A stretch of DNA of 64,000 bases. Source: Nitrospira japonica. Its GTDB lineage: Bacteria; Nitrospirota; Nitrospiria; Nitrospirales; Nitrospiraceae. The position numbers were made by a program, and so were the translations under genes. Each line of letters begins with the position of its first letter. Position 1 is the stretch's first letter. The notes under the pieces were generated by a model that saw nothing but the letters and a program-made list of their open reading frames with translations, was not told the origin of the DNA and made no database searches. The DNA lies in assembly GCF_900169565.1 (NCBI RefSeq), contig NZ_LT828648.1:3508501-3572500 (forward strand). Reading direction: 5' to 3'. Positions 56,058 through 62,440 of this stretch are shown in pieces.

Positions 56058-57233
56058 TCATCCGCCGACGATTTCTTGATAGTAGGCTTCCAGCATCGCG
56101 GCGCGCGCCGGTTCGACGATCACCAGTTGGCGCCGGTCGAACGTGTTGGCACAATACACATACCGACCCTCGTCGAACTGCCCGTACTCCGCATGCAGTT
56201 GCCGTCCGTCTGCTTCGGAGCGGGTCTGTTCCCTGATGACGATACGACCACTCAACCTCTGCCAAACCGATTGCGCCGACGGATGGTGATTTTCATAGAG
56301 CGGCGCGTCAGAACCGGCTGCCGGGGGACCGGCTGACGGACTGAACGGAGACCCCTCGTCAGGCTCCGGCGTTTCGTTCCACTCCACCGTGGCATCTCCG
56401 TTTTTCCGCATCGTGTAGAACGGCCCGTCCTCGGCAACCTCCTCCACGAGGTTATAGCGGACGGGGCGAGACGGTTCGGTTTGAACCAACCCGCGCGCCG
56501 CCAGGGCCCGTTGAAACGGGACACGCCGCGACAGCTGGCGCGTCTTTTCAAGTGCGACCATGCGCCCATCCGCGGCCAGAAGCGAGCAGAGTCCGTCGAG
56601 CCGGGGACCGATCCCCGTCCGCTCCTCGAATTCCCGCTGAACGGCGGCATCCCGATCCCGTTCGAACGTCCTCCAATCGAGACTCGGCAGGCCGGGATCC
56701 TGCTCCGCCTGCACCAACGCATGGGTCGCTACTACCAGATCAACCGTCACCGACGGGCGTCGCTCCACGATGTCGAGGCACTCGAATCGAACGTTCCGCA
56801 GGCCGAGCGTCGCCGCCTGCTCTTCGGCCCGACGTACCGATGTCGTCGACCGATCAACCCCGAGGAATGAAACGTGAGGAAACCGTCTGGCGTAGAACGT
56901 CGTCAAAATACCGGGGCCGCAACCGAAGTCGAGGACCGATGCCGCGCGACCGATCCGCTCCGCGGTCAACGCTCCGACCGTCAAGTAGTACTCATACCGC
57001 TGGCTGTACAGGACCGGAAGAATTCGAGGTTCGGCCGTCGCGTCGTAAAAGGCGATTTCGGCGGCGCCGGTCCCCTGCCGCTTTTGCTCAATTTGGCGGT
57101 GAAGGATCGAGAGGTCGTCGGCGGAAAGAGTTTGCCGCTGCCAGTGGAAATAGGCCTCGTCGGAGTCGAACCGCCGAAGCTTCCAAAACTCCAAGTGCGC
57201 GTTGAGCGCTCGTTGCAGCGAGTCACCGATCAT
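56058..57233 (-). CDS. SAM-dependent methyltransferase with extra C-terminal domain
   Basis: 391 residues. Rossmann motif I VLDFGCGPGILTTFYARRF (about 99-117), then FLGVDRSTTSV and VRFECLDIVERRPSVTVDLV. The N-terminal 95 residues are helical. After about 300 residues comes an acidic Pro-rich linker and a C-terminal beta domain (GRIVIREQTRSEADGRQLHA, GRYVYCANTFDRRQLVIVEP) resembling a WGR-like fold. The substrate is unknown. Confidence 0.75.
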   Translation of the reverse strand: MIGDSLQRALNAHLEFWKLRRFDSDEAYFHWQRQTLSADDLSILHRQIEQKRQGTGAAEIAFYDATAEPRILPVLYSQRYEYYLTVGALTAERIGRAASVLDFGCGPGILTTFYARRFPHVSFLGVDRSTTSVRRAEEQAATLGLRNVRFECLDIVERRPSVTVDLVVATHALVQAEQDPGLPSLDWRTFERDRDAAVQREFEERTGIGPRLDGLCSLLAADGRMVALEKTRQLSRRVPFQRALAARGLVQTEPSRPVRYNLVEEVAEDGPFYTMRKNGDATVEWNETPEPDEGSPFSPSAGPPAAGSDAPLYENHHPSAQSVWQRLSGRIVIREQTRSEADGRQLHAEYGQFDEGRYVYCANTFDRRQLVIVEPARAAMLEAYYQEIVGG

Positions 57234-57303
57234 CGATCCTCAAAGCGCCTGCTCACAACGGCACCATTCTCACCCACCCACCCTGGCGCAGAGACGCGCC
57301 ACT

Positions 57304-57410
57304 CCTCAAGCAAGGCCGCAAGGAGCAAGGACCACGAGGCGTACGCGGTGAGGGTACGTTGAGTGGTTCGAGCGACTGAGAACGCAGCCAGAGAGCGTTT
57401 CAGCAGGCGT
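57304..57410. repeat. Putative dispersed intergenic repeat with two hairpins
   Basis: CAAGCAAGGCCGCAAGGAG, then CGTAC (57340-57344) and GTACG (57354-57358) as one stem, and AACGC (57381-57385) with GCGTT (57395-57399) as a second. From memory, very similar elements recur between genes of Nitrospira genomes, usually just after a gene, as here after the ProA-like gene. That identity is recollection, not checked. It may act at the RNA level as a 3' structure. Confidence 0.45.
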
Positions 57411-58775
57411 TCATGGTCGCTTCAGCATGATGGCGTCAAAATAGGCTTCCGGAACCGGGTGCGGCAGACGCAACTGGCCGCTGCCGAACGTCACGTACTT
57501 CTCGCAGGTCAGTTGCTCGAGTCCGACCGGTCCCTTCGCATGAAGGCGCGACGTGCTGAGACCGATGTCCGCACCGAGCCCGAACCCGTCGCCTGCGTTC
57601 AGCCGAGACGACGCATTGACCATGACCGAAGCGGCATCGACCTCGCGCGTAAATCGCATGGCGGACGCGTAATTGGTGGTGGCGATGACGGCGGTCAGCA
57701 CCGGTCCGTGCTGGGCGATGTGTTGCAGGGCCTCGTCCAGGCCGGTCACCATCTTGACGGCCAACAGGCGTCGTTCGAACTGCGTCGTCCAGTCTTCCTC
57801 CGCGGCCGGCTTGATGGAAGTGTGGCCGCTCATGGCCATCTGTCCCATCAATGCGATGGTCTTCGGACACCCGCGCACTTCGATCTTGAATTCATCGAGG
57901 AGCCGGTTGATGAGCGCCGCCAAAAACTGCCGGGCCACCACCTGCTGGACCAGCAGCGTGTCGAGCGCGTTCGACGCGCCGGCCAGCTGTGCTTTGGAGT
58001 TGATGGCGATGTTCTGCGCCATGGGAATATCGGTGTCGGCATCGACGTAGAGATGATTCAAGCCTCCGTCGTGACAGAGTACCGGCATCCTGGCTCCATC
58101 GAGCACCGCCTTGCGCAAGCCCGGACCGCCTCGCGGGATGATCGCGTCGAGATGTTTGCCCGCCCGAATCAGTTCGACCGCCACCTCTTTCTCCTGACGC
58201 TCCACCAGCACCCAAGCGCCCGCCGGCACGCCTTCCCCCTGCGCGGCTTCCTTGAGTCCTTTGCCGATGACCTCGTGCGTCAGCGCCCATTCCGGTGCGC
58301 CGCGGAAAATGCAGGGATTGCCCGCTTTGAGACAGAGCGCGATGGATTCGACGGTGACCAACGGCTTTCGTTCCGAAATCACGCCGATCACCCCGATGGG
58401 CACACGCACGCGCGAGACCTGTAGCCCGTCCGGCCGTTCCCATTTGGCGGTCACCGCGCCGACCGGATCGGCCGAGTCCGCAATGGTCCGAAGACGCTCC
58501 GCCATCTCCTTGATATCGTCGGCCTGAATGCGCACTCTCGCGACCGCTGCCTTGAGAGGATCCTTGTTCGATTCGCCTTCGAACGACTTGCCCAACGCAT
58601 CGACGTCCCGATCGTTGGCGGCGAGGATTGCTTCGGCATCCGCTTCGATGCGGTCGGCCATGGCTCGAATAGCCTTGTCTTTGACCGGTCCAGGCAACAA
58701 CGCGACGGGTGGAGCCATTTTTCTAATTTCTTTCAAGAGTTTATCGACATATATCTTCACTGGAACTTCAGGCAT
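57411..58775 (-). CDS. ProA-like aldehyde dehydrogenase, nucleophile Cys replaced by Ser
   Basis: 454 residues, resembling glutamate-5-semialdehyde dehydrogenase throughout: PIGVIGVISERKPLVTVES, ALCLKAGNPCIFRG, IIPRGGPGLRKAV, HLYVDADTDI, ASSRLNAGDGFGLGADIG and LHAKGPVGLEQLT. In true ProA the catalytic residue lies in NxKxQRPxxCN. Here it reads NSKAQLAGASN, with Ser268 in place of Cys. So it may not reduce glutamyl phosphate, or may be a divergent relative. The canonical proBA is not in this window. Confidence 0.75.
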   Translation of the reverse strand: MPEVPVKIYVDKLLKEIRKMAPPVALLPGPVKDKAIRAMADRIEADAEAILAANDRDVDALGKSFEGESNKDPLKAAVARVRIQADDIKEMAERLRTIADSADPVGAVTAKWERPDGLQVSRVRVPIGVIGVISERKPLVTVESIALCLKAGNPCIFRGAPEWALTHEVIGKGLKEAAQGEGVPAGAWVLVERQEKEVAVELIRAGKHLDAIIPRGGPGLRKAVLDGARMPVLCHDGGLNHLYVDADTDIPMAQNIAINSKAQLAGASNALDTLLVQQVVARQFLAALINRLLDEFKIEVRGCPKTIALMGQMAMSGHTSIKPAAEEDWTTQFERRLLAVKMVTGLDEALQHIAQHGPVLTAVIATTNYASAMRFTREVDAASVMVNASSRLNAGDGFGLGADIGLSTSRLHAKGPVGLEQLTCEKYVTFGSGQLRLPHPVPEAYFDAIMLKRP

Positions 58776-58848
58776 CGGATCCTCCGTATCCTAAGGTCTT
58801 GCTGCGCGCCGGCGAACTATAGCACGCGATTTTTCAGACAGTAAACCG

Positions 58849-60144
58849 TCACCCCGTCGCTTCGGAGGCGGCCGTTCCGGCCCGTCGTCTTCGATCTTCC
58901 TGTCGTGCAAGCGACCATCCCAACCAGGCCCAGCAGCAGGCGATTGGAACCAGTATCCACGAAATCTGCGCAGCCGACACCCCGAGAGCCTTCACGGCAT
59001 TGACGACCCACCCGGTCACGGCATCGCCTCCACGCGAGACCGCCGTATCGATGAAGTTTTTCGCTTTGTATTTCTCCTCGCGGGTGACGACCGTGAAAAG
59101 CACCTCACGGGCCGGCTTGGAGACGGCATATTCCCCCACACGCCGAACGACCGTAAACAGCGCGTAGAACACCAGCACGGGAGCCGCCCCGATCAGGGCA
59201 AACCCTGCGGCGCTGGCGAGAGGCAGGGCGACAAGCGCCGCCGCCAATCCAAGCCGGCCGATCACCTGGCCGGTGACGAACAGCTGCGTCAGGAACGTGA
59301 TGACATTGACGGCAAGATCGATCGTGGCGAAGAGTCTGGTACGGCCCTCCGGAGAGGGAATCTGCTCGCTGACCAGCCGCGTTTGCTCCAGATAGAGAAA
59401 CGTCGCCGTCGTGGTGAGGCAAAACAGATAGAGACAGATCCCCAGCAAATACGGCGAGGAGACGGCCAGTCGAACTCCCTCCCACATGCCGCCTCCGAGC
59501 GGGTGGCCAGACTGAACGCCCTGGACTCCCGGTCGGGCCGACGCCCATTCGTGCAGGCGGTAGATACAGAACCCGCAGCCGGCGAGAAATCCCGCCGACA
59601 CCAGCATCAGCCACGGGATGGGCGCCAGATAGGTGACGGTCGCGGCCAAGACCGGCCCGCACATGGCGCCCGTACTGCCTCCGGCGGCGATCACCGCGAA
59701 CAACCTGGCTCCTTGAGAAGGCGTAAAGAGGTCGGCCATGAAGCTCCAAAATACCGAGACGACGAACAGGTTGAAGACGGACAGCCAGACGAAGAACATG
59801 CGCGCGACCCACGAGGGCGTCGTGTGGCTGATCATGAGCAGAAAAAAGCCGATGAGATTGGCCCCGAAAAACGTATAGACGCTCAGCAGCAGGCGATTGC
59901 GTGGCACATGGGAGGAGAGATAGCCGAACAACGGCGTCACGACCAGCAGCGTGACAAACGTGGCAGTCATCATCCAGGGAAGATGCTGGACACCGCCTTC
60001 GATCGCCATCTCGTCCCGCACCGGACGAAGAATGTAGTACCCGCACAGCAGGCAGAAAAAGTAGAAGAACGACCATGCCACCGGCACGATCTCCTCGGAT
60101 TCCGCCCCGGTTACGGCTTGAATGGTCGAGCGCAGATGCGTCAC
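58849..60144 (-). CDS. Nucleotide-carrier-like MFS transporter
   Basis: 431 residues from GTG at 60144, with about 12 membrane helices. [25 protein letters not shown] at the N-terminus and [33 protein letters not shown] recall the TLC/Npt-type (ATP/ADP carrier-like) group. That group assignment is from pattern memory. The substrate could be a nucleotide or a metabolite. The ProA-like gene follows on the same strand, 73 bases away. Confidence 0.7.
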
Positions 60145-60251
60145 AGGGCGGCATCCTGACGGGCGCGCTCCGAGGGTGCAAGCGGAAAATCGACGGACGA
60201 GGGTCGGACCGGGACTTTTTTCCCGCCCTCCGCTGTGGTATGCACTCAGGG

Positions 60252-61286
60252 ATGACGTTGATCGACCTTCGCAGCGACACGGTGACCAAACCGACCACGG
60301 CGATGCGGAAAGCCATGGCACAGGCCGACGTCGGCGACGACGTCTATGGAGAGGATCCGACCGTCAACAAGCTTCAGGATGCCGTCGCGGCCCTACTCGG
60401 GAAAAAGGCCGCCCTCTTCGTCCCCTCCGGCACCATGGCCAATCAGTTGGCCATCCGCGTGCACACGCAGCCGGGGCAGGAAGTCATCGCGGAAAGCAAG
60501 GCCCACATCGTCCGGTATGAGCAGGGAGCGGCCGCCGCCCTCTCGGGCGTGCAACTGCACTGCATCCCCGGAGACCGCGGGCTCGTGGGCGCCGATCTCG
60601 TCGAAGCCGCGATCCGGCCGAGCGATCCCCACACCGTTCGAACCGCGCTGATCTGCCTCGAAAACACACACAACGGCGGCGGCGGCACGATCTATCCCCT
60701 CTCGACAATCGAACGGATCAGAGCCGTCGCCGTAGACCGCCGGATCCCGATGCATCTGGACGGTGCGAGGTTGTTCAATGCGGTGACGGCAACCACGCTG
60801 CCGGCCGCATCCTATGCCCAGCATTTCGAAACCGTTTCACTCTGCCTGTCGAAGGGATTGGGCGCGCCGGCCGGCTCGCTCCTTGCGAGCAACGACCTCG
60901 CGCTCATCGAGCGGGCCCGCCGGTTCAGGAGAATGTACGGAGGCGCCATGCGCCAAGCCGGCGTGCTCGCCGCCGCCGGACTCTATGCGTTGGAACATCA
61001 CGTCGCGCGTCTGAAGACGGACCATGACAATGCCAAACGCCTCGCCAGGCGGCTTCAGCACATTCCCGCCATCACGATCAGTCCGCAGCACGTCGAGACG
61101 AACATCATCGTCTTCGACGTCCCGGGCCATCGCCTCGCGCCCGCCGCGCTCGTCGCGGCCCTCAAGCAGGAAGGCGTGCTGATCAACGCGGTCGGCGGAA
61201 CGAGTTTCCGCGCCGTGACCCATCTGGACGTCTCGACGGAGGCGATCGATCAAGCCGCCGACGTCTTCGCACGCGTACTCAGGTGA
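60252..61286 (+). CDS. ltaE: Low-specificity L-threonine aldolase
   Basis: 344 residues from ATG at 60252; an ATG at 60240 would add four. [44 protein letters not shown] (Asp170 with PLP nitrogen) and [13 protein letters not shown] with Schiff-base Lys201. It makes glycine and acetaldehyde from threonine. Divergent from the transporter gene. Confidence 0.93.
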
Positions 61287-61323: not shown

Positions 61324-61635
61324 ATGCCTGACGTCGATGCGGCCGGACTCGAAGATACCGAATCTATCCGCCGCACCGACGCACTCTCGAAGCCGAAAGG
61401 AATCATGCCGCCGCTGGAAGCCGTGTCCTTCGCCCAGATCAGCCGAATCCTCGAATTGACCGACCGTCTCGGCCTGAACCGTGAATGGGTGGAAATTCCT
61501 CTTTCTCCTGAACGACCCGGCCTCGTACGGCGACTGACAAATGGAAAGCTTGAGATCGTGGTCGACGCGGACGAACCGTTCGAACACTGGCTCGCTTCCC
61601 TCGAAACACGCATTCTCGAGACCCAGCGATCATAA
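61324..61635 (+). CDS. Hypothetical protein
   Basis: 103 residues from ATG at 61324; ATG at 61405 (AAAGGA nearby) would give 76. The N-terminal part is polar and disordered. From 28 on it is compact (LEAVSFAQISRILELTDRLG, WVEIPLSPERPG, GKLEIVVDADEPFEHWLAS). No family is recognised. Upstream of the nucleotidyltransferase gene. Confidence 0.55.
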   Translation: MPDVDAAGLEDTESIRRTDALSKPKGIMPPLEAVSFAQISRILELTDRLGLNREWVEIPLSPERPGLVRRLTNGKLEIVVDADEPFEHWLASLETRILETQRS

Positions 61636-61654
61636 GAAACCGAGGCCGTACGTG

Positions 61655-62440
61655 ATGGACACCGACCCAACCAAGACACTGCCGAGCCGTGAAGAGCTGC
61701 AGGCCGAACTCCTGGACGTTCCCGAACCGCCCGAGCAGCCGGAGCCGGTCGATGAACCGGGATTCGAAGAACTCGTACAACTGGCGCTGCGCCATGCGAA
61801 GGGACGCAGAGGGGGCGATCTCGTCAGCGTCATCCTCATCGGTTCCGGGGCCCGGCGCTCCGTCACGGCGCACAGCGATATCGACCTGATCGCGTTGGTC
61901 AAGGGTCAGGCCGATGCGCACGAGATCGTGCGGGTCGCGGCCCGGCTGGCGGACATCCGCTATTATGGACATCGGGATCTGGAAGACGAACTCGCCTATT
62001 CGCCCCGCCTGCCCCCGCTTCTGCGCAAGAGCCGGATCTTGTTCGACCATGACGCGATCGGCGCCAAACTGATCGATCGGGCCAACCAGCGGTTCCGCCA
62101 GGGACCGGCTCCCTCCAGCGTCAACGAACAAATTCGCCTGAAGGCGCAGTGCCTGCACTGGCTCGGCAAAGCCCAGGATCTGGCGGACAAGCCCGCCACG
62201 GCCAATTATCTGATGATGATGTTCTTCGACGAATACTCGAATGCGTTCTTTCGTCTGAAGGGCCTGTGGTTGACTCCCCCGGCCGATCTGCTGCGCTTCA
62301 TCTCGTCCCGCGATCAATCCCTGGGTGAATTGGTCGGCAAGTTTCTTACCGCGGGCACCCTTCCGGAGCGACTGAATATCGGGCGTGACTTGGCGGATCT
62401 GCTGTTCCGGGAGGTGCCGAACCCCGCCAGAATCGACTGA
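61655..62440 (+). CDS. MNT-type nucleotidyltransferase with helical C-terminal domain
   Basis: 261 residues from ATG at 61655. Polar N-terminus, then the pol-beta-type signature LIGSGARRSVTAHSDIDLIAL (about 60-80) with GS and DxD. The following helical part (ANYLMMMFFDEYSNAFFRLKG) resembles HEPN-type domains. MNT-HEPN pairs usually are toxin-antitoxin, but in one polypeptide they may be antibiotic-type nucleotidyltransferases. The role is unclear. Confidence 0.7.
   Translation: MDTDPTKTLPSREELQAELLDVPEPPEQPEPVDEPGFEELVQLALRHAKGRRGGDLVSVILIGSGARRSVTAHSDIDLIALVKGQADAHEIVRVAARLADIRYYGHRDLEDELAYSPRLPPLLRKSRILFDHDAIGAKLIDRANQRFRQGPAPSSVNEQIRLKAQCLHWLGKAQDLADKPATANYLMMMFFDEYSNAFFRLKGLWLTPPADLLRFISSRDQSLGELVGKFLTAGTLPERLNIGRDLADLLFREVPNPARID

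Follow-up and report, generated by a model that had tools for sequence, protein, structure and literature searches.

A protein encoded in the stretch of 64,000 nucleotides analysed here (the window) resembles the proline biosynthesis enzyme ProA, and is best explained as a maintained ProA-fold pseudoenzyme that may be a non-catalytic partner of the methyltransferase encoded downstream of it. We give this reading a probability of about 0.5. The host genome is closed, 4.08 Mb in size, and its relatives with named records are Nitrospira, a genus that includes widespread nitrite oxidisers. The features of the locus are collected in Table 1.

Table 1. Features of the ProA-like gene and its methyltransferase neighbour, in window positions.
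Feature	Position	Strand	Basis or remark
ProA-like (gamma-glutamyl phosphate reductase fold) pseudoenzyme, 454 aa	57411..58775	-	Profile, fold and alignment evidence; ORF 58775..57411 starts with ATG
Codon TCG, Ser268, at the place of the catalytic Cys of ProA	57972..57974	-	Codon read and alignment
C-terminal tail PHPVPEAYFDAIMLKRP, residues 438-454, absent from normal ProA	57414..57464	-	Alignment
Promoter-like site TTTACT-18-TATAGT	58816..58845	-	9/12 match; 0.5 expected by chance in scanned region; weak
Gap between ProA-like and methyltransferase genes, 177 bases	57234..57410	-	Terminator scan
Class I SAM-dependent methyltransferase, 391 aa	56058..57233	-	Adjacent downstream of ProA-like gene, same strand
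SAM-binding motif I, VLDFGCGPG, methyltransferase residues 100-108	56910..56936	-	Motif read
Methyltransferase C-terminal domain, residues 311-391; predicted helix, four strands, helix	56061..56303	-	No Pfam match

Profile searches show homology to ProA, or gamma-glutamyl phosphate reductase (GPR), over residues 9-436. The protein scores 409.5 bits against the whole-length family profile NF001221 (cut-off 289) and 308.5 bits against TIGR00407, below the cut-off of 317.45; it shares 46-50% identity with normal ProA from its own order. The top Foldseek matches are GPR structures, with PDB entries 1o20, 4ghk and 8zok among the closest known. The AlphaFold model has a mean pLDDT of 72 and is too uncertain at residues 235-269 and 380-454 for residue geometry. 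Automatic annotation based on NF001221 would label the gene ProA, an enzyme of proline biosynthesis, which the sequence argues against, and metabolic models built on such annotation would include a reductase absent in reality.

The initial annotation had read a serine at the place of the catalytic cysteine. This is confirmed: codon 268 is TCG, and the same column is a cysteine in 53 of 53 aligned Nitrospirota ProA. The alignment contains 105 distinct orthologues of the ProA-like protein and 54 normal ProA from Nitrospirota; the catalytic column is filled in 53 of the latter. In the orthologues, this column is occupied by serine (52), alanine (29), threonine (13), proline (10) or glycine (1); none of the 105 has the cysteine of the N-K-QRP-CN motif that characterises ProA (EC 1.2.1.41), so Ser268 is neither chance nor a sequencing slip. 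At least 19 residue changes have taken place at the catalytic site, counted on a paralogue tree made without that column. Such drift between five residues indicates a position without function that was released from constraint, not a new serine nucleophile. An enzyme with serine chemistry, one of the initial suggestions, does not agree with this variation, and serine as the nucleophile is ruled out. The established GPR mechanism depends on the cysteine. In P5CS of Drosophila, the acyl phosphate is attacked by C598, and NADPH then reduces the resulting thioacyl enzyme (PMC8963878). Judged by its sequence, the ProA-like protein is very probably unable to run the normal reductase reaction.

Loss extends well beyond the catalytic residue, contrary to the earlier impression that the other ProA features are intact. 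Only 62 of 116 ProA-invariant positions are kept, taking as invariant those with at least 95% conservation in the 54 normal ProA and as kept those with at least 90% in 52 paralogues. The QRP of the motif had been described as lost; this is correct for the arginine and the proline, but the glutamine is retained in 105/105. Lost or variable in the paralogues are R152 and N154 (of YESRPNVT), K249, H250, R279, P280 and D400, numbered after the normal ProA of the same genome (L001). In Drosophila P5CS, R712 and D715 bind glutamate 5-phosphate (PMC11061531). Transposing these residues to the ProA-like protein by our mapping of the NASTRFxDG motif, the arginine corresponds to R391, kept in 105/105, and the aspartate to D400 of normal ProA, kept in 8/105 and replaced here by an alanine at position 394. 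The Arg and Asp with which ProA (EC 1.2.1.41) binds glutamate 5-phosphate are thus not both present.

At other positions, among them S134, W163, R221, D272 and F296, fixation is confined to the paralogues. There is also an insert of 6-7 residues near 311-317, and the chain is extended at its carboxy-terminus by 17 residues, of which P438, H439, P440, P442, Y445 and D447 are invariant across the 105 orthologues. The strong conservation of this tail, which has no counterpart in ProA, suggests that it is a contact surface.

A tree of 74 proteins groups the paralogues in one clade (support 100/100), the sister of which is the normal ProA of families f1 and f3, with families f2 and f4 of the order excluded (100/98). 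This placement shows that proA was duplicated once within the order, after f2 and f4 had split off. A horizontal origin is ruled out by the tree. The stem of the paralogue clade is long, at 0.48 changes per column, as expected from a surrender of catalysis. Values of dN/dS are 0.06-0.12 for the paralogue (six pairs), versus 0.06-0.07 for normal ProA; purifying selection on the paralogue is as strong as on ProA, and the gene was never lost in 97 genomes. The protein combines clade-wide loss of an essential catalytic residue with upkeep under purifying selection, as pseudoenzymes do. The inactive paralogue put forward in the initial annotation is supported by the loss of the cysteine in all 105 orthologues and the decay of the active site, which point to a protein that is probably catalytically dead.

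Relatives were also sought more widely. A scan of genome contigs found no ProA-like genes outside Nitrospirota, using peptide patterns taken from this protein, so that distant cases are possible. Plasmid matches are all below 60% identity, and the annotated ones are ordinary ProA. A relative of ProA, represented by its C-terminal half, is encoded on a contig from a viral collection (L115:6-665); it is 42% identical to the ProA-like protein.

A second, normal ProA, the presence of which had been raised as a question, is encoded in the same genome (C1:3901032-3902210, 486 bits); it contains the cysteine, in the motif NAKVQRPSTCN. This supports the initial idea that the ProA-like protein is a specialised relative of a normal enzyme. 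One ProB and two ProC are also encoded, the latter by two full genes of near-equal score outside the window, C1:3697089-3697880 (-) and 1664547-1665329 (+). Proline synthesis can do without the ProA-like protein and, in our reading, runs through the normal set of ProB, ProA and ProC. Paralogue and normal ProA occur together in every single-contig genome of the 97-genome set. A genome search detected ProB but no normal ProA in 7 of the 97 paralogue-bearing genomes, nor in genome G002. The genomes without a detected normal ProA are all drafts of 20-230 contigs, so that gaps are likely, and replacement of ProA by the paralogue is unsupported. Several other drafts have their normal proA no more than 2.5 kb from the start of a contig (G023:C70, G010:C5, G242:C60, G312:C18, G244:C43 and G305:C33), suggesting that something beside the gene often breaks assemblies and making an assembly gap plausible.

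The protein encoded downstream of the ProA-like gene has the Rossmann core and intact SAM motif I (VLDFGCGxG) of a class I SAM-dependent methyltransferase, with Pfam PF13847 and PF13649 above cut-off. Its model has a mean pLDDT of 90, and the best class I match is 9j56 (Z 18.6, rmsd 2.7 over 193 residues); matches within Z 1 count as tied, and the fold lists span residues 18-280. The C-terminal 80 or so residues, with the motif GRQ-H-E-G...YLY-ANT-DQRQ, are conserved across f1 and f3. Sequence similarity to known methyltransferases is weak (best E 8.6e-8), so the substrate is not readable from homology. With dN/dS values of 0.18-0.31, the methyltransferase evolves faster than the ProA-like protein.

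We searched 295 Nitrospirota genomes for both genes. They occur in the same 97 genomes, all belonging to f1 or f3, and both are missing in the remaining 198. In 97/97 genomes, the methyltransferase gene follows the ProA-like gene directly and in the same direction, at a median hit-to-hit distance of 139 bases (range 22-520). The initial annotation had noted neither this neighbour nor the conserved tail. A scan for terminators gave no terminator-like site in the gap between the two genes of the window, and the sole promoter-like site of our scan, a weak one, sits just upstream of the ProA-like gene. The pairing persists at 45-47% identity, where other neighbours differ. An MFS transporter, a GntG-family aldolase, a nucleotidyltransferase and 6-phosphogluconate dehydrogenase are neighbours in many f1 genomes and are absent beside the pair in f3; the linkage therefore does not reflect gene-order conservation of the whole region. 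As every sampled genome of the two families carries the pair, it is probably important to them.

Two of these neighbours deserve a brief description. The MFS-type transporter (58849-60321, -), just upstream of the ProA-like gene and kept in many Nitrospiraceae but not in f3, presumably resembles the ADP/ATP translocase-like group. The nucleotidyltransferase-domain protein (61541-62440, +) has weak similarity to MntA-type antitoxins (21 bits, below the cut-off of 60), and its gene adjoins that of the GntG-family aldolase in many Nitrospiraceae.

These observations suggest the following history. In the common ancestor of the two families, proA was duplicated once, and the duplicate lost its nucleophilic cysteine and much of the substrate pocket. 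It would then be unable to make the thioacyl intermediate that gamma-glutamyl phosphate reduction requires, and its fold may have been retained for a non-catalytic role. The adjacency in 97/97 genomes and the exact co-occurrence argue for a job involving the methyltransferase, most likely as its protein partner. The ProA-like protein could be an activating subunit, a substrate-positioning subunit or the methyltransferase's own substrate, options between which the data do not separate, and docking may perhaps take place via the conserved C-terminal tail. We infer the partnership from two things, gene order and co-occurrence; protein contact, the direction of regulation and the methylated target would be further steps of inference. 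A functional link of any kind to the methyltransferase has even or slightly better odds, physical contact lower ones. A more specific proposal is tentative: a lineage-specific two-component system with the ProA fold as non-catalytic subunit or dedicated substrate of the methyltransferase, possibly coupling proline or NADPH status to methylation. Against the partnership, gene linkage is not the same as protein contact, and a spacing that varies from 22 to 520 bases is loose for tight coupling. The faster evolution of the methyltransferase also counts against our reading, and a true lack of normal ProA in the seven genomes or in G002 would weaken the dead-enzyme part of it.

Of the alternatives, we rank a regulatory partner of ProA or ProB above a ligand-binding sensor, and the latter above an enzyme with other chemistry. 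The dead copy might serve proline synthesis as a regulatory or structural subunit, tuning flux by forming mixed oligomers with ProA or binding to ProB, while the methyltransferase has a separate function and shares the operon, or modifies that complex. The paralogue derives from the ProA of its own lineage, and all single-contig genomes contain both; a tetrameric structure of E. coli GPR has been deposited (8zok), GPR dimerises in P5CS filaments and a bacterial complex of GK and GPR has been reported (PMC8963878). This alternative is nevertheless rather improbable, as in the regions read the paralogue never adjoins proA or proB, and always the methyltransferase, and its tail and inserts are paralogue-specific. 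In the sensor alternative, a remnant pocket would hold NADPH, glutamate 5-phosphate or a related compound, its state controlling the methyltransferase or a transporter. Retention of N259, K261, Q263, N269 and R391 in 97-105 of the 105 paralogues is in line with such a pocket, but the Asp that partners R391 is gone, as are the ESRPN motif and the KH pair, and the protein model is too uncertain in the relevant regions (235-269 and 380-454) to judge it; we consider this role unlikely.

Still less probable is an active enzyme, with a relocated nucleophile such as Cys234 or with reduction that proceeds without a covalent intermediate, even though the strong selection on the protein would fit one. 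A different cysteine as nucleophile would have overturned the initial annotation and was looked for, but no cysteine column combines invariance with restriction to the paralogues. C234, which comes closest and aligns with K249 of normal ProA, is a cysteine in 80 of the 105 paralogues and in no normal ProA, but in the remaining 25 it is Gly, Ser or Ala (alanine in N. moscoviensis), so it is not a common nucleophile. Normal ProA likewise conserves C148 and C303, ruling out relocation to these residues, and many substrate residues are gone. A decaying pseudogene heading for loss is the most improbable of all. The active-site residues do drift, and one copy looks broken (G009:C47:56163-57481, with separate matches to residues 1-333 and 416-453 and the methyltransferase still adjacent). 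Nearly all copies are full-length and open, though, and the single origin, the absence of losses in 97 genomes and a dN/dS of about 0.065 refute decay; a recent pseudogene is ruled out by the same selection and retention data.

A literature search returned no paper pairing Nitrospira with this protein name and none on a GPR pseudoenzyme. We know of no other case in which a dead ProA of single origin spans a clade and is linked to a methyltransferase. ProA/GPR itself (1o20, 4ghk, 8zok) shares whole-length homology and the fold with the ProA-like protein, which differs in lacking the catalytic cysteine, in leaving about half of the ProA-invariant positions unkept, and in its extra tail and insert. 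The downstream protein shares the Rossmann core and SAM motif with class I methyltransferases such as Rv2258c (5f8c), DnrK, RdmB and UbiG, and differs from them in its extra N-terminal helices and its conserved C-terminal domain.

Dead homologues of metabolic enzymes are already known, also in the aldehyde dehydrogenase fold. Vertebrate ALDH16A1, like the ProA-like protein, is an ALDH-fold protein without the catalytic cysteine that is maintained by selection; it and other ALDH-fold pseudoenzymes belong to a different ALDH family and have a separate origin, and to our knowledge none has a methyltransferase neighbour. A dead protein is kept beside an active enzyme, as its activating subunit, in the trypanosome AdoMetDC prozyme, in METTL3-METTL14 and in trypanosome PRMT1, the last two being methyltransferases. 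In these systems the inactive subunit is a paralogue of its catalytic partner, whereas in the pair described here the two proteins would have unrelated folds. If the partnership is true, a metabolic enzyme that lost its activity has come to serve a methyltransferase with which it shares no fold.
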